This document shows, in pieces, positions 46,607 through 58,083 of a stretch of 64,000 nucleotides of DNA. Position 1 is the stretch's first letter. Each line of letters starts with the position of its first letter. Both the position numbers and the translations under genes were made by a program. This stretch comes from Granulosicoccus sp. (GTDB taxonomy: Bacteria; Pseudomonadota; Gammaproteobacteria; Granulosicoccales; Granulosicoccaceae), in contig JALZUD010000004.1 of the NCBI GenBank assembly GCA_023301725.1, positions 62,001-126,000 of the forward strand, in the 5' to 3' direction. Below the pieces are notes generated by a model, which saw nothing but the letters and a program-made list of their open reading frames with translations, was not told the origin of the DNA and did no database searches.

Positions 46607-47905
46607 TTAGAAGTTGTATTCCACTTCCAATCGGGCTATCCATGCATCATCTCGTCCATCGCTGAACGCGTCACCAGGAACAAATCTGCCACTGGTCATT
46701 ATGAGGTTGAGCTGTTTATTGTGTTCGTAGTTAACAACAAGATCAGCTCCAATTCCTAAATCGTCATCAAGGCCCAGTGGCTCAAATTCAATGTCACTGC
46801 CCCGTAAATTATCTTCGATTTCGACTTGTTGGTAACTGTGCACTGCAATGTCAGCAGTCCATTTTTTCGTGATCGTTGCACCTACGCCTGCGGTGAGAAT
46901 GCGTATGTTGGTGAGTTCAGGATCCAGAACCTCACCCAAATACCGAAACGTTGTTTTGTTATTGAGCGCGAAATCGTTGCCGTGCAGTCCTGTCTGCCGA
47001 AAACGCTCATCACGTTCACCACCACTGGCGTGGGATACCGCTAGTGTAAACGTTGGTTCCCAAGCAACATTTGCAGTCCAGTTCAATCCAAGCTGCACCG
47101 CCTGTCCTTGGAGGTCTATGTCTGAATTGGAGTCAGGGTCAGTTTCGGTACCATCCATTGCTGTTGCGTGAAACCAGTATCTCCACGACGAACCCTTGGG
47201 TTGTACGATTGCCTGCAAGCCTATCCAGGTGCTATCAAAGTCGGGTGAATCACCAAAAGCATCACCAGCTCGTTGAATGACGTAGGGCGTCCAGATGGTA
47301 TTCTTGTTTGGACGTAATTTCAAGGCACCATACGTGTTGTCTATTTTATCTACGCGATCTAGCGTGCTAGCCTCGAACCAGTCTTCGCGAGTTTGCGATA
47401 GTTCCAGTTCTGTGTTGCCAAAGTCGAAGGATAGCCTAAGTCCGTCTAAGTCTTCATCCCAGATGAACTCCATAGGATCATCAAAACTTTGTCTTCCAAG
47501 ACGAAATCGTAAATTGTCGCCAGCGTTGACTTGCAGAAATAATCGCTCTAGATCATAGGCGAACGTTTCATCATCGTTGTTGAGCTCGCTACGACTAAAG
47601 CGCCGACTGCTCAGTTGGAGTCTGCCGACTAGACTGGCCCACTTTCCTAATGATTGTTTTGCATCAAGAGTAAGTTCTAGTTCAACTTGCCCAGTATCAC
47701 GTTCGTTAATAAAGTCAGCATCTTGTGCCTCAGTGCGCGCCAGATTCAGATCCAGTGAGGCGTCAAACTCGGGTGCAGAAATTGACTGAGAATTGGCGCT
47801 CTGTACGGTTAGCAGCAACGCACTCACTATTAGCCAAGTAGGCACATGTGGCTGCTTTGCCAAGCGAGAGGTTCGGCTGACCATATAGGGAGTTTTTAGT
47901 GGCAT
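46607..47905 (-). CDS. Outer-membrane beta-barrel, alginate-export (AlgE) family
   Basis: A 432-residue porin-like protein. After a longish N-terminal stretch, a signal peptide (TWLIVSALLLTVQSANSQS) leads to alternating polar and hydrophobic beta strands, ending in the C-terminal aromatic VEYNF that BamA recognises. AlgE-family marks are ERLFLQVNAGDNLRFRLGRQ, FIWDEDLDGLRLSF and GQAVQLGLNW. It should let an anionic or small polar solute through the outer membrane; no alginate synthesis genes are nearby, so export of alginate is not implied. The true start may be the Met eight codons in. Confidence 0.83.
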   Translation of the reverse strand: MPLKTPYMVSRTSRLAKQPHVPTWLIVSALLLTVQSANSQSISAPEFDASLDLNLARTEAQDADFINERDTGQVELELTLDAKQSLGKWASLVGRLQLSSRRFSRSELNNDDETFAYDLERLFLQVNAGDNLRFRLGRQSFDDPMEFIWDEDLDGLRLSFDFGNTELELSQTREDWFEASTLDRVDKIDNTYGALKLRPNKNTIWTPYVIQRAGDAFGDSPDFDSTWIGLQAIVQPKGSSWRYWFHATAMDGTETDPDSNSDIDLQGQAVQLGLNWTANVAWEPTFTLAVSHASGGERDERFRQTGLHGNDFALNNKTTFRYLGEVLDPELTNIRILTAGVGATITKKWTADIAVHSYQQVEIEDNLRGSDIEFEPLGLDDDLGIGADLVVNYEHNKQLNLIMTSGRFVPGDAFSDGRDDAWIARLEVEYNF

Positions 47906-47941: not shown

Positions 47942-48997
47942 CTATTCCAACCCCAACTGCGTGCGTGTGAGAATAAACCAGTGGTCAGTACTTTTTTTTC
48001 TGGAGTCACCCTCGTCGCGTACGAACATTATGCCACCGTTGATTGGCGTTAGTCCTTCAACGTTATCAAACAACTTGTTGGATTTGCTGCGATACCGTAC
48101 TGGATCTTGCAGGGATTGAGCATTGAGTGCCCACAAAGAAAAGTGTTTCTTTTTGCCAGTTTCACGCTTGCCAACCAAGAGAAGCTGGTCGGAGAGGTCG
48201 TCGTAAGCCATGGCTCTGATACCTTGTTTGTCCAGATCAACAGTGAGCAACGTGTTGTTGAAGTCGGGTGCGGCCCCCTCAAGGTACTCAACAGGATTAT
48301 TCAGTGCCACAATAATGGCGTTGTTATCAATTGTTGGCGTTCTTAGTCCAATAAGCAGGCGATGACGTTTTCTGTCGTACGCTAAGCCTTCAATGTTAAT
48401 TTTGCTTGAATCATCTCGCTTACTGCCTTCGGTGACAGCTGTCAAATCAGGTACCTGTAGGTCTAGCTGTTCATAAAGGTCCTGACGCATGAGAGCACTG
48501 GTGATGTTTGCGCCATCGCGTGTCAGTAGCACCAGTTTTTCGCGCAATGGCAGACGGCCACGACTTGCGTTCTCATGTGACCCTATGACAAAGAAACGTT
48601 GAGAGGAGAGTTTCGCAATTCCCTCAAGATCATCAAGCGGACCGATCAGACGTCGCTTTATGAAGCCGTCAGCGGTTGCCTGAGGATACTCGGAGATTTG
48701 AAAGTTATCAAATGACGCATTGTTGATGGTGATTCTTCTGAGTGGCGAACCAGATTCATCGTTTATCACCAATAGTGTGCCATCCTCTAGAGCCGTAATT
48801 CCGGAGGGTTCGTTCAAGGAATTAAATCGTCCGGAGGCTTCTGGCTTAGCGATTTTCTGCGGATATTGCAGGTTATTTGCTGCCGCATGTGGGTTAACAC
48901 AGGCCAGAAGAATTAGGCCTATAGACAAAGATACCGCTGCCATTTTCACAATGGCAGCAGCGTTTGTAATTTTGTGGTCTGCGAGGCTACAGCGCAT
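47942..48997 (-). CDS. Secreted DUF3616 family beta-propeller-like protein
   Basis: A 351-residue exported protein with a hydrophobic N-terminus (MAAVSLSIGLILLACVNPHA) and a repeated beta-propeller pattern: NEPSGITALEDGTLLVIND, IGPLDDLEGIAKL, KINIEGLAYDRKRHRLLIGLR and KLFDNVEGLTPINGG. The spaced D/N-x-EG motifs are typical of DUF3616 and phytase-like propellers, in which the acidic residues bind calcium; catalytic function is not established for DUF3616. LLAC could be a lipobox, but cleavage after NPHAAA is as likely. It lies 36 bases upstream of the AlgE-like gene on the same strand, probably as one transcript. Confidence 0.8.
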   Translation of the reverse strand: MRCSLADHKITNAAAIVKMAAVSLSIGLILLACVNPHAAANNLQYPQKIAKPEASGRFNSLNEPSGITALEDGTLLVINDESGSPLRRITINNASFDNFQISEYPQATADGFIKRRLIGPLDDLEGIAKLSSQRFFVIGSHENASRGRLPLREKLVLLTRDGANITSALMRQDLYEQLDLQVPDLTAVTEGSKRDDSSKINIEGLAYDRKRHRLLIGLRTPTIDNNAIIVALNNPVEYLEGAAPDFNNTLLTVDLDKQGIRAMAYDDLSDQLLLVGKRETGKKKHFSLWALNAQSLQDPVRYRSKSNKLFDNVEGLTPINGGIMFVRDEGDSRKKSTDHWFILTRTQLGLE

Positions 48998-49048: not shown

Positions 49049-49942
49049 TTAGGATGGCAGCGCTGGAGACAGCAAGAACTCGCCATACCAATTCAATGCC
49101 ACCAGAGTTACTAGTGACAATACGGTGATGATGGTTCCGGCCATAAAAGAGGTGTAGGAGTAGTACAAAAATCGGTATTTCTTGTCAGCGGTGACACCAA
49201 GGTCGTGGATGTGAGCAATCATGCTGCGATAAACGCGCTGTGGATTAGTTAGCATAGTGGTCATTGCTTCTATGTACTCAGATTCGCGCAGGTCTGAGAA
49301 CTCTTCGAATACGAGTAGGCGTGCCTCGTCGCGCATGAAATCATTCATGCTGAATTTACTGCGGCTGATTTCTGGTCTGGCCGCAAACACCGCAAATGTG
49401 GTGGCAGTGGCACAAGTGATCAGGAACACAATGATCGGAATGATGTACAAACCATTTATGGACACCAGATGAGTGCCAGAGATGATCAACATGGACATTA
49501 ACAAACCGTTAAGCGAAATCATGATGTTCGCTTTGGTTGCGGCCAATGCCAACATATCTAACTGCGAGCGGTAGGCATTACGCAGTAGGGTGTCAATTCC
49601 TCGACTGCCTTTGTTTAGATCAAAGACGTTTTCCGAGACTTTAGGTTTTTGTCTAGCTCTGTTCTTTGCGGTTTTGTTACCCGGTTTTTTGCTAGCAGGT
49701 TTGTTTGACTCTTGTTTGGACACATCAGTGCTTATGTCGGAATCGAGTTTCGCAGGAAGTATTGTTCGATCCTCTGTTGCAGGTGTGTTCATCACGCGCA
49801 GAGTTGGCTGCCCATCCTTGGCGTCTTTATCGGTGCGCGGTGCAACCATTTGTGTAATCCTTTTTTCCGTCTTTTTGCCAGTCATGCTAATTACATTCCA
49901 TTTGAACTTGGTCTGCCATAGCTTTTTCGGATGTATTTCCAA
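49049..49942 (-). CDS. PycTM-like (DUF5706) transmembrane protein, possible orphan Pycsar effector
   Basis: A 297-residue protein. The first 110 residues are polar and Lys/Arg-rich; then comes the PycTM core: DTLLRNAYRSQLDMLALAAT, KANIMISLNGLLMSMLI, a second membrane helix IIPIIVFLITCATATTFAVF, a polar stretch with RDEARLLVFEEFSDLRESEY, and a last helix FMAGTIITVLSLVTLVAL. The ATKANIMISLN signature and the helix plan are those of DUF5706. In Pycsar defence PycTM perforates the membrane when a cyclase makes cCMP or cUMP; no such cyclase is next door. The start may instead be at 49885 or 49849. Confidence 0.72.
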   Translation of the reverse strand: MEIHPKKLWQTKFKWNVISMTGKKTEKRITQMVAPRTDKDAKDGQPTLRVMNTPATEDRTILPAKLDSDISTDVSKQESNKPASKKPGNKTAKNRARQKPKVSENVFDLNKGSRGIDTLLRNAYRSQLDMLALAATKANIMISLNGLLMSMLIISGTHLVSINGLYIIPIIVFLITCATATTFAVFAARPEISRSKFSMNDFMRDEARLLVFEEFSDLRESEYIEAMTTMLTNPQRVYRSMIAHIHDLGVTADKKYRFLYYSYTSFMAGTIITVLSLVTLVALNWYGEFLLSPALPS

Positions 49943-50264: not shown

Positions 50265-52832
50265 TTAACTTCTAGGTTTCAGGTTTTCTGGATCGTATAG
50301 TGGCTTATACCCAATAGATTCAACCACAACGGGATATTGCTCACCAAAATATTCGATAAGCAGTTCTGTACCAGGTGTGCAGTATTCGTAAGGCAGGTAC
50401 GCCAACGCTATGTTCTTGCCAACACTTGGACCATAGACAATGCTGGTGGTGTACGACCGCCGCCCACAAGAGTCAATGAGTGTCTGGCATGAATCTTTGT
50501 CCATTACTGGACAAATGCCAACTGGGTATCGGTTGACGCCTGTTGAATCTGTTATGCGAGTCATCGTTAATGTACAGAGCATGGCGGGCTGGTGTTCTCG
50601 TGCACGTTGCTCCATGTAAGCGTCCTTGCCCATAAAGTCAGCAGCTTTCACTTTGGGTCTGGCAAGATCAGCCTCAAGCAAGTTGTACTCTGTGAGTAGA
50701 TCCGAATTTTGCAGCCGAAGGCTTTTCTCCAAGCGTCGGCTATTCGCATAGGTTTCAATACCGATAGGTGTGACGCCCAACGCCGCTAGTGCATCCCATA
50801 CTTTTAGGCCATCGTCGTAAGTGAAATGTAGTTCCCAGCCTTGTTCGCCAACGTATGAAATCCGAAATGCGGCAATTGACACACCATCAATTGTTAGTGT
50901 TCTGACAGCTGCGAACGGAAAGTTCTCAAGACTCAACGCGCTTGGGTCGTCGACAGCTTTTGCAAGAGTAGTACGAGCATTCGGGCCCCAGATGCCTAAG
51001 CACGCATAATCTGTTGTTCGATCCTCGATAACGAGATTGGTGAGTTGCTTATCGGCGCTTATTCTTTGCAGCCATACGAAATCCCTGTTACCCGATGCGC
51101 CTCCATCAATGATTCGGAAGTGATCGCTCGCCATACGGATCACCGTTAGATCTGCACGAACTCCACCTGTGTGATCAAGAAAGTGCGTGTATACACCCTT
51201 GCCTATGGCTGTATCGCTGCCTACTTTCGCAACGCACGTGAACTCCATAAGCGCCTCTGCATCCACACCACGAACATCGTAGATGGCAAAGTGTGACAAG
51301 TTAACCATGCCAACATCTTCAGAGAGTTGCAGATGCTCAGCGTTTGAAACTGGCCAGAAATGTCGGGAGTCCCATTCGTTGAGTCGCTCAGGAATCTGGC
51401 CGCTAAATTTTTCCAGTAGGTGATTGTTGCTGGCATAGCCGTGTGCTCGTTCCCAGCCAGCGGCTTCCATGAAATGTCCGCCAAGCCCTACCTCACGCTC
51501 ATAAAAAGGACTCCGGTGCAGCCCACGACCTTTGGTGTAAGGCTCACGTGAATGGACTGCCGGGTTATAGATTTTGAATGCAGTTTCGTAGCAGCGATCA
51601 TGAATGTATTGCTCTTCCTGCTGAAATGGGTAGTAGCGCGTTACGTCTACACCAAAGTGGTCAAATTGGGTAACACCGTCGGTCATCCAGTCGGCAATGA
51701 GTTTGCCGGTGCCAGGGCCATCTTTAACCCACACTGACACGGCATACCACAGACCTCTGACTTTGGCCGATTCACCCACTGATGGGCCGCCATCGGCTGT
51801 GACTTGTAACAAGCCATTGAAAGAGCGTTTTTCGTCGTAACCTAACTCGCCAAGAATAGGTGTGAGTTCCATCGCTCGCTCCAAGGGCGCCATGATGTGC
51901 TCCATATCAAGATCGCGTTGCGAGGGAGACAAACGACAATCTTCCTTTTCCAGAATATCGCGTGGGTGGCACAAGCGAGGTTCAGTTTCTTCGTAATAAC
52001 CCCATTCAATCATTCCGCCCTCGGAAGTTGTCGGGTCTCCTGTGTCTCGCAGGTACGCCGAGTTGCCTTGATCGCGTAATAAGGGATACCCGATGTCTTT
52101 GCCGGTTCCTTCGAATTCTTTGTAGGGTCCAAACCAGAGCAGGGGATGGTCTACTGGCATGACGGGCAAATCTTCGCCTGCCATCTGTGCAATCAAGCGG
52201 CCCCAGAGGCCTGCGCAAACAACGACATAATCTGCTTCGATATAACCTCGGGTGGTTTCCACACCGACAATGCGCCCGTTCTCAATTTTCAGGTCTGTCG
52301 CTGAGGTGTTGGCGAAGGATTGCAGCTTGCCTGTCTCTACCGCAGCCTCTACGATCTCGCCTGTGACGACTTGAGATCTTGGAACAACTAGGCCTGCATC
52401 CGGGTCCCATAGCGCCCCTTGAATAACATCCTCTTCTAATAAAGGCATTTTCTCTTTGGCTTCGGCGGCGCTGATCATTCTGGCGTTGGTGCCGAAAGCT
52501 TTTCCCGAGGCTACCTTACGCTGCAATTCAGCCATCCGATCGTCGTCGCCTTTACGAGCTACCTCCAACCCCCCAACCTTGGCGTAGCGACCCATTTTTT
52601 CAAAAAATTCGATGCTATACATCGTGGTTTGGCAGGTCATCTGATCGTGGGCTGTGGCGTAGCAGAAATCAGATGCGTGAGCTGTGGAACCAATATCGGT
52701 AGGAATCGCTGATTTATCGATACCCACGATATTGTCCCAACCTCGTTCAATCAGGTGGTGGGCGACTGATGCCCCCGTGATTCCACCTTGACCAATGATG
52801 ACAACTTTAGCTTTTGCGGGAAAACTGGCCAT
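50265..52832 (-). CDS. FAD-dependent dimethylglycine/sarcosine dehydrogenase-like fusion with GcvT domain
   Basis: An 855-residue two-part enzyme. Residues 1-420 are a DAO-type flavoprotein: dinucleotide motif IGQGGITGASVAHHL, then His52 in GSTAHASDF, the position where dimethylglycine dehydrogenase links FAD covalently, and DHPLLWFGPY. Residues from about 430 are a GcvT/aminomethyltransferase domain (GDVRG-like IYDVRGVDAEAL, SYVGEQGWELHF, and IGIETYANSRRLEKSL) that passes the released C1 unit to tetrahydrofolate. Substrate could be dimethylglycine, sarcosine or a related methylamine. It stands alone, but the carnitine operon makes glycine betaine, the precursor of dimethylglycine. No signal peptide. 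Confidence 0.88.
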   Translation of the reverse strand: MASFPAKAKVVIIGQGGITGASVAHHLIERGWDNIVGIDKSAIPTDIGSTAHASDFCYATAHDQMTCQTTMYSIEFFEKMGRYAKVGGLEVARKGDDDRMAELQRKVASGKAFGTNARMISAAEAKEKMPLLEEDVIQGALWDPDAGLVVPRSQVVTGEIVEAAVETGKLQSFANTSATDLKIENGRIVGVETTRGYIEADYVVVCAGLWGRLIAQMAGEDLPVMPVDHPLLWFGPYKEFEGTGKDIGYPLLRDQGNSAYLRDTGDPTTSEGGMIEWGYYEETEPRLCHPRDILEKEDCRLSPSQRDLDMEHIMAPLERAMELTPILGELGYDEKRSFNGLLQVTADGGPSVGESAKVRGLWYAVSVWVKDGPGTGKLIADWMTDGVTQFDHFGVDVTRYYPFQQEEQYIHDRCYETAFKIYNPAVHSREPYTKGRGLHRSPFYEREVGLGGHFMEAAGWERAHGYASNNHLLEKFSGQIPERLNEWDSRHFWPVSNAEHLQLSEDVGMVNLSHFAIYDVRGVDAEALMEFTCVAKVGSDTAIGKGVYTHFLDHTGGVRADLTVIRMASDHFRIIDGGASGNRDFVWLQRISADKQLTNLVIEDRTTDYACLGIWGPNARTTLAKAVDDPSALSLENFPFAAVRTLTIDGVSIAAFRISYVGEQGWELHFTYDDGLKVWDALAALGVTPIGIETYANSRRLEKSLRLQNSDLLTEYNLLEADLARPKVKAADFMGKDAYMEQRAREHQPAMLCTLTMTRITDSTGVNRYPVGICPVMDKDSCQTLIDSCGRRSYTTSIVYGPSVGKNIALAYLPYEYCTPGTELLIEYFGEQYPVVVESIGYKPLYDPENLKPRS

Positions 52833-52947: not shown

Positions 52948-54849
52948 CTAAGGTAAGTCAAGTTTCATTACGCCAAATAGGTCAGTACCATCCTCAAGCC
53001 GATACGTATTGCGATTCACTTGCCACAGGGTTTGCGGGTCGCTACTGGCGCGGGCTATCACTCGAACGAATACACGCCCTTGGGGAAGTATTGAGCTGTT
53101 CACACGATAGCTGACCACACCGTCGCTCACATCAGCAATGCCAACGTCGCTAAACACGGTTGAGTCTGCTTCAAAAAAGGGCGATGTAGAGATAATCAGA
53201 TCGTAGCTCAGAGTGTTTTGCTGGGTAACATCAAATGCTGGTTCCCACTCAAGCATAATCGTACCGCCTTCGTCTATTTCTGGATCTTTGCGAATTTCAG
53301 GCTCCATTGGCACGCCAAAATTCTGCGTAATATCGGTATAAAGATCATTAACTATCGATACAAAGCGCTCTGGGCTGTTCGGCTCAAATCGCACATGTGC
53401 GCTATCTGGCAGTTTGGTTAAGTGAGGCTCTACTGCATTATTGAGGTTTGATGCGTGCTGTAGGATCTGCGCATCGCTGTAGTAATTTGCGCGCAATTCA
53501 TCAATCGCTCGAACCAGTAATGCGTGTGTTCCGGGTAAACGATAGTAGCGATCTACAAAATCACTGTTTTGTCCACGAGCATAGCCATAGAACTTACGCT
53601 TCTGCAGTTGTGCATTGTCGAGTGAATTGGTCAGAGTAGGCTCTGGCTCAAATGTGCCGTCATAGTCCCAAGGCAAGATATAAAAGCGTTCTGTACCTGC
53701 TGGGTTGTACAAATAGAAATTGTGTGTGATGGCATCAGTTTGATGCAAGATCAGGTTAGTGGCTAACCACGTCAGGATGTTATTGTGATTGAAGTGCTGC
53801 TCAATCACTGAGTCGAGGCTGCGCTCAGGATCAACCATTGCTTCGAGCATTTTTACCACCATGCGGTGGTCTTTACCGTTCTCGATTTCTAATCTTGATT
53901 CAAAGGCTTTGTCATCGAGTGGCTTGCCAGTCTCATCCACCTGAACGCTGTTCAGGTCACCTTGTGAGAAACGGAAGAATTCGATTTTATACAAATTGTC
54001 GTCTTCGCCCAGACCACGGTTGTTGACGTATTCCTTGCCGATAAATTCGGTATGGGTAAATAGGCCAAAGTCTTCCAAACCCTGTCCGTTGTCTAGCCAC
54101 AAGTTGACAAATTGTGAGCGTAACGAAGGGAAGTGTGGCACTGATTGGAAGAGGTCAAACGCGAGTTTGTTTTTGATGCGCGAAGATTCAAAGGGGTTTT
54201 TATTGAGCTGTAGACGTCGCTCTCCGCGCCAAAGGTCATCTTTGCTGTTCAGTTTAAGTCGAAAGGATTTCTGTGGTCCAAAGCGTGCTGTGTTTCCGCG
54301 TTGACGTAGTGTGGCGTTGGTTGCCAAGCCATCATCGGGTAAATCTTCGCCAGATGCGTGTATGTCAATTTCAACCTTGAAGTCGTCATTGCCATTGATA
54401 TCTGCAAGTACATCATCGAGAGTGCAACCTGACTGGTTATCGATAGTACAGATGCCTTGGGTAGTATTAGCTATGCGAAGATCGAGTCGGACAACGTTGT
54501 TGAGATCGTACCCGTCTTGCAAATAGAACGCGTTGAAATCCCCAATATCAGTGGGGTGGGGAACGAACACACTGTTTTGACGATAAACGGGAGGGTTGAT
54601 AGTGACGCCCGTGTCACCATTAGGGTTGAGCATAACCAGCTCGTTGTCGTTTGAATTCTGGTTATCGTCTGGGTTTTGATTGTTGTCGCCCCCATCAGGA
54701 TTAATAACAGGGTTGGTTCGTTCAGAATCAATGTCGGCACCGTTTGCATCGTTGGATGCTAAAGGCGTTGCATCGTCAGCAACACCACACCCGTTTAATG
54801 CGAGTAGAAATAGTACGGCTGCTAGGTATTTTGTTGAATGAATGGCCAT
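52948..54849 (-). CDS. CotH-kinase family lipoprotein (copy 1)
   Basis: A 633-residue lipoprotein: signal peptide with lipobox LNGC (Cys21), an acidic Asn/Asp-rich linker (about 30-85), then the CotH domain: LRQRGNTARFGPQKSFRLKL, LYKIEFFRFSQGDLN, the active-site-like LPWDYDGTF segment and a Fn3-like C-terminal domain (about 520-620). CotH is an atypical protein kinase fold that in Bacillus phosphorylates spore-coat proteins; members in Gram-negatives are uncharacterised. The gene is the downstream member of a tandem pair, with its near-identical neighbour at 55025-57010. With a lipobox, it should sit in a membrane facing the periplasm or outside. Confidence 0.87.
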   Translation of the reverse strand: MAIHSTKYLAAVLFLLALNGCGVADDATPLASNDANGADIDSERTNPVINPDGGDNNQNPDDNQNSNDNELVMLNPNGDTGVTINPPVYRQNSVFVPHPTDIGDFNAFYLQDGYDLNNVVRLDLRIANTTQGICTIDNQSGCTLDDVLADINGNDDFKVEIDIHASGEDLPDDGLATNATLRQRGNTARFGPQKSFRLKLNSKDDLWRGERRLQLNKNPFESSRIKNKLAFDLFQSVPHFPSLRSQFVNLWLDNGQGLEDFGLFTHTEFIGKEYVNNRGLGEDDNLYKIEFFRFSQGDLNSVQVDETGKPLDDKAFESRLEIENGKDHRMVVKMLEAMVDPERSLDSVIEQHFNHNNILTWLATNLILHQTDAITHNFYLYNPAGTERFYILPWDYDGTFEPEPTLTNSLDNAQLQKRKFYGYARGQNSDFVDRYYRLPGTHALLVRAIDELRANYYSDAQILQHASNLNNAVEPHLTKLPDSAHVRFEPNSPERFVSIVNDLYTDITQNFGVPMEPEIRKDPEIDEGGTIMLEWEPAFDVTQQNTLSYDLIISTSPFFEADSTVFSDVGIADVSDGVVSYRVNSSILPQGRVFVRVIARASSDPQTLWQVNRNTYRLEDGTDLFGVMKLDLP

Positions 54850-54957
54850 ATATAGCGCGTCCTTGCTGGGGATTAGCGCGGAGTTTATGGCATCAACTGG
54901 TTGAAAATTGTGCAGTTACACTCGAAATCAGCAATCTGTGTGCTGGTTGTCGAGCAA

Positions 54958-54999
54958 CCCGGCACGCAGACTGCGCTCTCATGCGCTTCGCCCGCCGGG
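54958..54999. repeat. Structured spacer between the CotH genes
   Basis: CCCGGC (54958-54963) and GCCGGG (54994-54999) enclose a smaller GCGC/GCGC dyad. It lies between the two tandem CotH genes and may act as a weak terminator or processing site on the - strand transcript. Confidence 0.35.
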
Positions 55000-55024
55000 A
55001 TGGGTAATTTTACCTCAGTGCTCT

Positions 55025-57010
55025 CTACGGCAGGTCTAGCTCCATTACGCCGAATAAATCTGTACCGTCTTCCAGGCGGAAGATATTTTTGTTGGTCTGC
55101 CAGAAAACATCAGGATTGCTGCTGGCTCTGGCGATAACGCGAACATACACTCTTCCTGACGGCAATATTGAGGTGTTGATCGGGTAACTGACCAAACCCT
55201 CACTCACATCTGCAATGCCGGTATCACTGAAAACAGTTTGAGCAGGTTCAAATCCAGGCGAGGTAGAAACAATAAGATCGTAAGTTAATGTGTTTTGCCT
55301 GGTGACATCAAACCCTGGCTGCCACTCAAGTTGCACAATGCCGGTTGCGTCAATGACAGGGTTTTCCATTATTACAGGTTCCATCGGGACGGCATAGTTC
55401 TGGGTGATGTCGGTGTATAGATCGTTGACTACTGACACGAAACGTTGCGGGCTGGCGGGTTCAAAACGGACATTAGCGCTATCTGGGAGTTTTGTCAGGT
55501 GAGGCTCAACTAAGGCATTGAGAACGGATGCACGTTGCAGAATCTGCGCGTCACTGTAGTAATTTGCGCGCAACTCATCCACCGCTCTTACCAGCAAATC
55601 GTGTGTTCCCGGCAAACGATAAAAGCGATCGACAAAATCACTGTTTTGTCCGCGCGCATAGCCATAGAATTTTCGTTTTTGAAGCTCTGCGTTGTCGATC
55701 GAGTCGGTTAGTGCAGGTTCTGGCTCAAAGGTGCCGTCGTAGTCCCACGGCAGAAAGAAAAACCGCTCTGTACCGGCTGGGTTGTATAAGTAGAAATTGT
55801 GGGTGATGGCATCGGTTTGATGCAAGATTAGATTGGTCGCCAACCACGTCAGAATATTATTACGATTAAAGTGCTGCTCAATGACAGAATCAAGGCCGCG
55901 ATCAGGATCTACCATCGCTTCAAGCATTTTTACCACCATGCGATGGTCTTTGCCGTTTTCGATTTCCAGTCGTGATTCAAAGGCATCCTCGTCGAGCGGT
56001 TCTCCATTCTCGTCAACTTGCACGCTGTTCAAATCGCCTTGTGAAAACCGGAAAAACTCGATTTTGTACAGATTGTCGTCCTTGCCCAGGCCGCGGTTGT
56101 TAACGTATTCCTCACCGACGAATTCTGTGTGAGTAAACAGGCCAAAGTCTTCTAATCCTTGCCCGTTGTCCAGCCACAGATTCACAAACTGTGAGCGTAA
56201 TGATGGGAAGTGCGGCACGGATTGGAAAAGGTCAAACGAGAGTTTGTTTTTTATACGCGAGGATTCGAACGGGTTTTTATTCAGCTGAAGTCTTCGTTCT
56301 CCACGCCACAGAACCTCTTTGCTATCAAGTTTGAGTCGGAAGGATTTCTGCGGTCCGTTGCGAGCGGTGTTTCCGCGTTGACGCAACGTGGCGTTAGTCA
56401 AAAGGCCGTCATCGGGTAAGCTGTCACCAGAGGCATGTATGTCAATTTCAACCTTGAAATTATCATCGCCATTGGTATCGGCGAGCACATCAGCAAGCGT
56501 ACAACCTGATTGGTCGTCAATGGTGCAAATGCCTTGGACCGTGTTGGCAATACGCAGGTCAAGGCGTATGACGTTGTCTACAGCGTAACCGTCTTGCGTA
56601 TAAAATGCGTTGAAATCGCCAATGTCGGTTGGATCAGGTACGAACACACTATTTTCGCGATAAGTGGGCGCATCGATAGTGACGCCGGTGTCCCCGTTGG
56701 GGTTGAGAAATACCGCGTCGTCGTCCGAATTTTGACCGTTGGTATCGCCATTATCGTCTGGAGTTTCTCCAGTGGGCGGAGTGGTCTCAGGTTGCACATC
56801 GTTGCCGCTGTCAGTGCCAGGGTTTGTCGTGCCACCGTCAATTGAATCATCGCCAGGATTTTCGGTGTCCGAGCCTGCGCCGGAGGCATCGTTAGACACT
56901 TGCGGCAATGCATCGTCTGCTATTTCACAAGCGCTTAGTGCCACAAGAAGCACTGCCGCGAATGCGAATCGTGATGGCGTCTTCAACATTGTGTTTACCG
57001 TTTTATCCAT
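55025..57010 (-). CDS. CotH-kinase family lipoprotein (copy 2, upstream)
   Basis: The upstream member of the tandem pair. From the ATG at 57010 it has 661 residues with lipobox LSAC (Cys28); an ATG at 56989 gives a shorter leader, and the long frame upstream to 57130 is implausible. The linker (about 35-110) is longer than in copy 1 and rich in Asp, Asn, Gly, Pro and Thr. The CotH domain is the same as copy 1 almost word for word (LRQRGNTARNGPQKSFRLKL, LYKIEFFRFSQGDLN, LPWDYDGTF), with the same Fn3-like end. High identity over the whole domain indicates a recent tandem duplication, with divergence mainly in the linker and leader. Confidence 0.87.
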   Translation of the reverse strand: MDKTVNTMLKTPSRFAFAAVLLVALSACEIADDALPQVSNDASGAGSDTENPGDDSIDGGTTNPGTDSGNDVQPETTPPTGETPDDNGDTNGQNSDDDAVFLNPNGDTGVTIDAPTYRENSVFVPDPTDIGDFNAFYTQDGYAVDNVIRLDLRIANTVQGICTIDDQSGCTLADVLADTNGDDNFKVEIDIHASGDSLPDDGLLTNATLRQRGNTARNGPQKSFRLKLDSKEVLWRGERRLQLNKNPFESSRIKNKLSFDLFQSVPHFPSLRSQFVNLWLDNGQGLEDFGLFTHTEFVGEEYVNNRGLGKDDNLYKIEFFRFSQGDLNSVQVDENGEPLDEDAFESRLEIENGKDHRMVVKMLEAMVDPDRGLDSVIEQHFNRNNILTWLATNLILHQTDAITHNFYLYNPAGTERFFFLPWDYDGTFEPEPALTDSIDNAELQKRKFYGYARGQNSDFVDRFYRLPGTHDLLVRAVDELRANYYSDAQILQRASVLNALVEPHLTKLPDSANVRFEPASPQRFVSVVNDLYTDITQNYAVPMEPVIMENPVIDATGIVQLEWQPGFDVTRQNTLTYDLIVSTSPGFEPAQTVFSDTGIADVSEGLVSYPINTSILPSGRVYVRVIARASSNPDVFWQTNKNIFRLEDGTDLFGVMELDLP

Positions 57011-57204: not shown

Positions 57205-58083
57205 TTACTCTACCGCCCAGAACGCGTTCACAATCGGATTCTCCAGATTGCGGCTGCGAGTAAACAAGCCAACTTCATAGGCCTTGAGTTTCGGCTGTAC
57301 ATCAACAACAACTACATTGCCAGATAGAGAGCTGTTTTCCAGCACTATCTGCGGCACTACTCCCATTCCCAAACCAAGGCTAACCATGCTGACTATGGCT
57401 TCATTGCCAGCTACCTGTGCATAGACTTTCGGGATGATTTTTTGCATTTTAAACCAAGCATTCACTCGACTCCTCGCAAGGCCTCGGGCGGATAAAATCA
57501 TTGGTACCGAGTTCCATTCAATAGTTCCGTGTGAATCTAAGGTAGGTATATTTCGATCTGGCCGGTCCAACGGAGCGATGAATACCAGTGGTGACACAAT
57601 GAGCGGACGAAATGCGACGCCACGTGGCAGCGAGCTGGGGTAAGCCGCAATAGCGACATCTTCTTTGCCTGCGACAATTCTATCAATCGCATCTTCCGGG
57701 TCACCAGTGAGCAGCTTGATTTCAATCTGCGGGTAGGCGGGTCTGAACTGCTCAAGAAGTTTAAAGAGGATGCTGTGACTAGCGGTAACTGAGCAGTAAA
57801 TACTCAGTTCACCTTTTAACGGGCTGTTTGTGTCTCCCAATTCTCGTTTTAGTTGGTTGAACCGCAAGAGTGCATCACGAGCGTAGGATTCAAAAATCTG
57901 TCCTTGGCTGGTCAAGGCGACTGAGCGGTTATCGCGCAGAAAAAGCGCTGCGCCCAAGTCGCTCTCCAGTTGTTGAATGTTGCGTGAAAGGCTTGACACG
58001 CTAGTGTTGCTATTCAACGCTGCGCGTCCAAAATGCAGGGCATTGGCGAGCGCTAAAAACTGATTAAGTGTCTTTGGGTTCAT
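57205..58083 (-). CDS. ilvY: LysR-family regulator, IlvY-like
   Basis: A 292-residue LysR-type regulator. The N-terminal winged helix-turn-helix ([43 protein letters not shown]) is followed by the inducer-binding domain (about 90-290, [19 protein letters not shown]). It is divergent from ilvC, exactly as ilvY is in E. coli, where acetolactate or acetohydroxybutyrate bound to IlvY activates ilvC. The family cannot be assigned to IlvY by sequence alone; the arrangement gives the call. Confidence 0.88.

Follow-up and report, generated by a model that had tools for sequence, protein, structure and literature searches.

CotH of Bacillus is a spore-coat kinase (Pfam PF08757; PDB 5jd9 and 5jda). Two aspartates are each required for the activity of the B. 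subtilis enzyme, as both the D228Q and the D251A substitutions yield an inactive protein (PMC7821199). CotH-domain proteins have also been described as invasins in Mucorales (PMC9973265) and, under the name of Sfz6, in stalk-forming Zetaproteobacteria (PMC8250860). Protein phosphorylation outside of the bacterial cytoplasm has been little explored.

Here, we analyze two tandem genes, designated A and B, located in a 64,000-nucleotide stretch of DNA from a marine Granulosicoccus sp. (contig JALZUD010000004.1, positions 62,001 to 126,000), the whole of which is referred to as the window. By sequence, A and B genuinely belong to the CotH family, of which they represent an exported form with an Fn3 tail. 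We propose, with moderate confidence, that they are long-standing paralogous CotH-type atypical kinases, anchored to the outer membrane, which would phosphorylate Ser and Thr residues of envelope or surface proteins with periplasmic or leaked ATP.

The tandem genes and their domains

A previous sequence-only reading of this DNA had described two long CotH lipoproteins following each other. This organization was recovered, since A and B are intact open reading frames, both containing a PF08757 domain and each a lipobox. The features of the locus are as follows.

50265..52832, minus strand: FAD oxidoreductase/GcvT enzyme, downstream of A
52948..54849, minus strand: copy A, CotH-family lipoprotein, 633 aa (ORF; PF08757 E 2.6e-43)
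52951..53334, minus strand: Fn3-like C-terminal domain of A, aa about 506-633 (homology to B)
53401..54309, minus strand: CotH kinase domain of A, aa 181-483 (Pfam PF08757)
53665..53667, minus strand: Asp395 of A, equivalent of B. subtilis CotH D251 (alignment to 5jd9)
53734..53736, minus strand: Asp372 of A, equivalent of B. subtilis CotH D228, catalytic (alignment to 5jd9)
54787..54789, minus strand: predicted lipobox cysteine of A (LNGC, Cys21), +2 residue Gly (sequence pattern)
55025..57010, minus strand: copy B, CotH-family lipoprotein, 661 aa (ORF; PF08757 E 5.1e-45; 5jd9 match E 1.2e-11)
55028..55411, minus strand: Fn3-like C-terminal domain of B, aa about 534-661 (predicted model; Z up to 9.7 versus Fn3 domains)
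55463..56386, minus strand: CotH kinase domain of B, aa 209-516 (Pfam PF08757)
55742..55744, minus strand: Asp423 of B, equivalent of B. subtilis CotH D251 (alignment to 5jd9)
55811..55813, minus strand: Asp400 of B, equivalent of B. subtilis CotH D228 (alignment to 5jd9)
56927..56929, minus strand: predicted lipobox cysteine of B (LSAC, Cys28), +2 residue Glu (sequence pattern)
57205..58083, minus strand: LysR-type regulator, directly upstream of B, same direction (beside the CotH locus in G024 and G025 too)

The start of B is at position 57010 or, possibly, at an ATG at 56989. In both proteins, the lipobox cysteine is followed by an acidic linker rich in Asp, Asn, and Gly, a conserved pre-kinase segment, the CotH domain, and the C-terminal Fn3 domain. 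The PF08757 scores of 149 and 155 bits were far above the gathering threshold of 23.8, with positions 1-294 and 1-299 of the 322-position profile covered. The solved structure of Bacillus CotH (5jd9) was matched by the family profile at an E value of 2.1e-25, and the kinase-type Lys, the Glu, the catalytic Asp, the Asn five residues on, and the metal-type Asp were aligned. The assignment to the CotH family was thus upheld. In this order, the residues are K194, E268, D372, N377, and D395 in A and K222, E296, D400, N405, and D423 in B. Equivalence of the two key aspartates to D228 and D251 was established through the 5jd9 alignment and through their spacing, rather than through the B. subtilis sequence itself; the spacing is 23 residues in A and B, as between D228 and D251.

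The kinase domain was modeled with low confidence by AlphaFold (two runs, five sequences; mean pLDDT of 35 to 41), and the Foldseek and VIA matches of the models lay mainly over the Fn3 part. There, the C-terminal model forms an Fn3-type beta sandwich (VIA-align Z of 9.7 over 104 residues, rmsd of 3.4), with pLDDT values mostly between 70 and 90. The predicted fold therefore agrees with the Fn3-like domain proposed earlier, although the Pfam fn3 profile did not match A or B. Both copies, and likewise their orthologues, display the sequence pattern of outer membrane lipoproteins, namely, a lipobox after a hydrophobic leader and no Asp at position +2 (Gly after LNGC in A and Glu after LSAC in B). 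This pattern argues for the lipoprotein assignment and for a predicted location in the outer membrane. Among the homologues, two styles of anchoring were found, consisting either of a lipobox and a linker or of a signal peptide and fn3-like repeats.

Genes adjoining CotH in Granulosicoccus

The window genome contains four CotH genes and Granulosicoccus genomes contain zero to five; across the class, few genomes have any (24 of 370 sampled). The best homologues of A and B were found on Granulosicoccus MAG contigs JALZWO010000020.1 and JALZVU010000012.1. The homologues comprise one subfamily of 41 members and a distant group of four other CotH proteins. CotH genes are in tandem in G041, too, and in G020, where the two form a sister pair of their own (support 100/99). 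Another CotH lipoprotein gene of the window genome is directly preceded by a gene for a copper-amine-oxidase-like protein with an Ig domain (L084:7125-8786), an arrangement conserved in G024 (L099).

No phosphatase or Ser-rich substrate gene was found among the neighbors of A and B. A functional tie with the FAD/GcvT enzyme was rejected, since this enzyme occurs throughout the genus, full-length or nearly so in almost all genomes, and adjoins CotH only in the A/B clade; the enzyme is probably unrelated to A and B in function. Farther from the tandem genes, the window encodes a membrane protein with a PycTM (Pycsar effector) domain (49049-49942; E 8.5e-23), which stays beside the locus in G024 and G025 and has a homologue adjoining another CotH gene (L092, 3923-4786); no cyclase was seen among the neighboring genes examined. 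It also encodes an exported protein with weak, below-cutoff similarity to DUF3616 and SdiA-regulated proteins (47942-48997); in three species, synteny places its gene next to that of an alginate-export-type porin, which lies at 46607-47905 in the window.

Genes surrounding 40 CotH loci and the window were clustered, and the CotH genes were divided into 14 clades according to our own grouping of the tree. One neighbor stood out by its recurrence: an exported calcineurin-like metallophosphoesterase (PF00149) adjoins CotH in 12 cases, at 11 loci and in 6 of the 14 clades; one is encoded at L085:5769-7406 and the 11 others at L066, L079, L083, L088, L090, L091, L094, L097, L098, and L102. These 12 genes are more than half of the 22 members of this metallophosphoesterase family in the genus, against about 0.07 (0.065) expected within 3 kb by chance, a comparison that does not provide a true probability, as the metallophosphoesterase genes are related to each other. 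In G027, a 13th gene is located one gene away from a fragment of CotH. Since the paired genes may be convergent, divergent, or in tandem, the association does not reflect a single fixed layout. In the window genome, the CotH gene of contig 27 has a metallophosphoesterase beside it, whereas A and B do not. Distances between kinases and between phosphatases were correlated (Mantel r of 0.75; 0 of 20,000 shuffles), a result confounded by species relatedness. The linkage was not found outside the genus in 22 CotH-bearing genomes.

The metallophosphoesterases, which often carry two or three C-terminal repeats (FSRTD...RWI...WID...CA), contain the motifs GDQG, GDLGY, GNHEN, WHK, and HxHAYS, presumably resembling those of purple acid phosphatases; Pfam supports PF00149 only, and no solved structure was matched at E values up to 1. 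Exported CotH proteins and metallophosphoesterases could conceivably form modules for reversible envelope phosphorylation in Granulosicoccus, A and B being stand-alone kinase members, but we regard this proposal as doubtful. If true, Gram-negative bacteria would possess a system of kinases and phosphatases acting at the cell surface. Taken alone, A and B are of moderate interest; it is the linkage to phosphatases that merits experiment.

Other neighbors of CotH point to phosphorus and polysaccharide metabolism. In the sister clade of A/B, genes for a VTC polyphosphate polymerase and a DUF4956 protein are located directly downstream of CotH (L075:3905-5656 and L086:6289-7794). A PhoD-type phosphatase gene is divergent from CotH in one further clade (L096:7435-9015, with orthologues in L081 and L078), and three of the four strongest matches of the PhoD family search lie at CotH loci. 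GH16 glycoside hydrolases adjoin two CotH genes (L074:1038-3812 and L086:1619-3382) and carry fn3-like modules similar to those preceding many CotH domains. These associations, together with the metallophosphoesterases, would fit an extracellular phosphorus or polysaccharide system in which CotH, as a distant relative of Fam20-type kinases, would phosphorylate a glycan or a polyphosphate or matrix component rather than proteins. For A and B, this alternative is unlikely: neither VTC nor PhoD was found in the window genome, and no polysaccharide enzyme adjoins the two genes except for the porin mentioned above, four genes away. The earlier remark that no polyphosphate polymerase or coat-protein gene is near was correct for the A/B locus and, for VTC, extends to the whole assembly (94% complete).

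Kinase-type residues and age of the duplication

Loss of the ATP-binding residues in both copies had been raised as an objection to the kinase assignment; Lys, Glu, Asp, Asn, and Asp are retained in both. Among 45 homologues, the Glu, the Asn, and the metal-type Asp are invariant and the catalytic Asp is present in 44, and the kinase-type Lys is found in all 41 subfamily members. A and B are thus probably catalytically competent kinases. The dN/dS ratios (about 0.05 to 0.09 for the A-B, A-G024, and B-G024 comparisons) indicate that both copies are maintained under strong purifying selection.

This conservation bears on two other readings. The kinase fold might have been retained for binding rather than catalysis, A and B acting as adhesins or scaffolds in the manner of the Mucorales CotH ligands of host receptors. 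The predicted surface anchoring and Fn3 modules would suit such a role, some Mucorales CotH proteins bind GRP78 (PMC9973265), and kelp is a habitat of members of the genus (PMC9238374). Pure scaffolds usually lose catalytic residues, whereas these positions are among the most conserved in the family, making this role quite unlikely. AMP transfer and glutamylation are established for other atypical kinase-fold families, and this general precedent could extend to A and B as a non-kinase transferase activity. We find this improbable, as the closest characterized relative, CotH, phosphorylates Ser and Thr, and both copies keep the two aspartates on which its activity depends.

Competent kinases maintained by selection remain our preferred reading, and the paralogy of the two copies is long-standing. 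A and B are identical at 73.5% of DNA positions, 77 to 79% of protein positions, and 39% of four-fold degenerate sites, with Ks values of 2.7 (NG86) and 1.7 (YN00). By comparison, Ks was 0.7 to 1.3 for three flanking orthologue pairs between the window genome and the nearest species (G024), the LysR pair being saturated. By region, identity is 41% in the leader and linker, where differences had been said to gather, 82% in the pre-kinase segment, 90.6% in the CotH domain, and 72% in the Fn3 domain; the description of the last two domains as nearly identical therefore holds for CotH and fails for Fn3. The longest exact run common to A and B is 23 nucleotides, indicating no recent gene conversion, and no conversion tract was visible.

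G024 and G025 have one CotH gene at the syntenic position. In the larger tree, B groups with the G024 gene (98/90); a second tree unites A and B, with indecisive support (80/77). The two trees conflict on the order of duplication and speciation, the distances among the three genes being almost equal. The A/B duplication roughly dates back to the split from the nearest sequenced species or is older still, and the recent duplication claimed by the sequence-only reading is contradicted by the DNA divergence and by Ks values above those of flanking orthologues. A recent duplication in tandem, serving gene dosage, or a contig assembled twice would account for the tandem order, the single copy in G024 and G025, and the second tree, but is scarcely credible given the saturated synonymous sites, the short shared runs, and the larger tree. 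An assembly artefact, the other objection raised, is excluded by the divergence of the copies and by the fact that two other MAGs have orthologues in synteny.

Proposed role and comparison with known systems

In the mechanism that we propose, A and B would follow the lipoprotein export route, acquire a lipid anchor, and reach the outer membrane, as suggested by the lipobox and the lack of Asp at +2. The flexible acidic linker would tether the kinase to this membrane, and the distal Fn3 domain could bind a partner or the matrix. The phosphate donor may be ATP, either periplasmic or leaked by cells, and the acceptors would be Ser or Thr residues of envelope or surface proteins. At related loci of the genus, the exported metallophosphoesterase might reverse or balance phosphorylation, any link to A and B being equally conjectural. 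The source of ATP, previously considered puzzling, is answered in part by the literature: the periplasm of E. coli contains steady-state ATP at 24 ± 3 µM per 10^10 bacteria, and ATP is also present in outer membrane vesicles (reviewed in PMC7432876).

Granulosicoccus genomes encode as many as five exported CotH proteins, whose catalytic residues are intact and whose genes are recurrently linked to those of exported phosphatases. On this basis, the genus offers a concrete system for studying whether surface phosphorylation takes place in Gram-negative bacteria, from what donor, and on what substrates.

Similar to A and B, the Mucorales CotH invasins are secreted, often anchored, and present in many copies (PMC9973265); unlike A and B, they are fungal and GPI-anchored. 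Sfz6 is a Gram-negative CotH-domain protein with a proposed link to extracellular structures but has an SH3 architecture, no lipobox-Fn3 arrangement being described (PMC8250860). VTC-DUF4956-CotH clusters occur within the genus itself (L075 and L086), whereas the A/B locus has no VTC gene. Unlike Bacillus CotH, A and B belong to a Gram-negative genus that is not known to sporulate and are predicted to be exported as lipoproteins. No CotB- or CotG-like substrate gene was noticed beside them, and they add an N-terminal linker, the conserved pre-kinase segment, and a C-terminal Fn3 domain to a kinase domain that shares with the spore-coat enzyme a significant profile match, the aligned catalytic residues, and the 23-residue spacing of the two aspartates.
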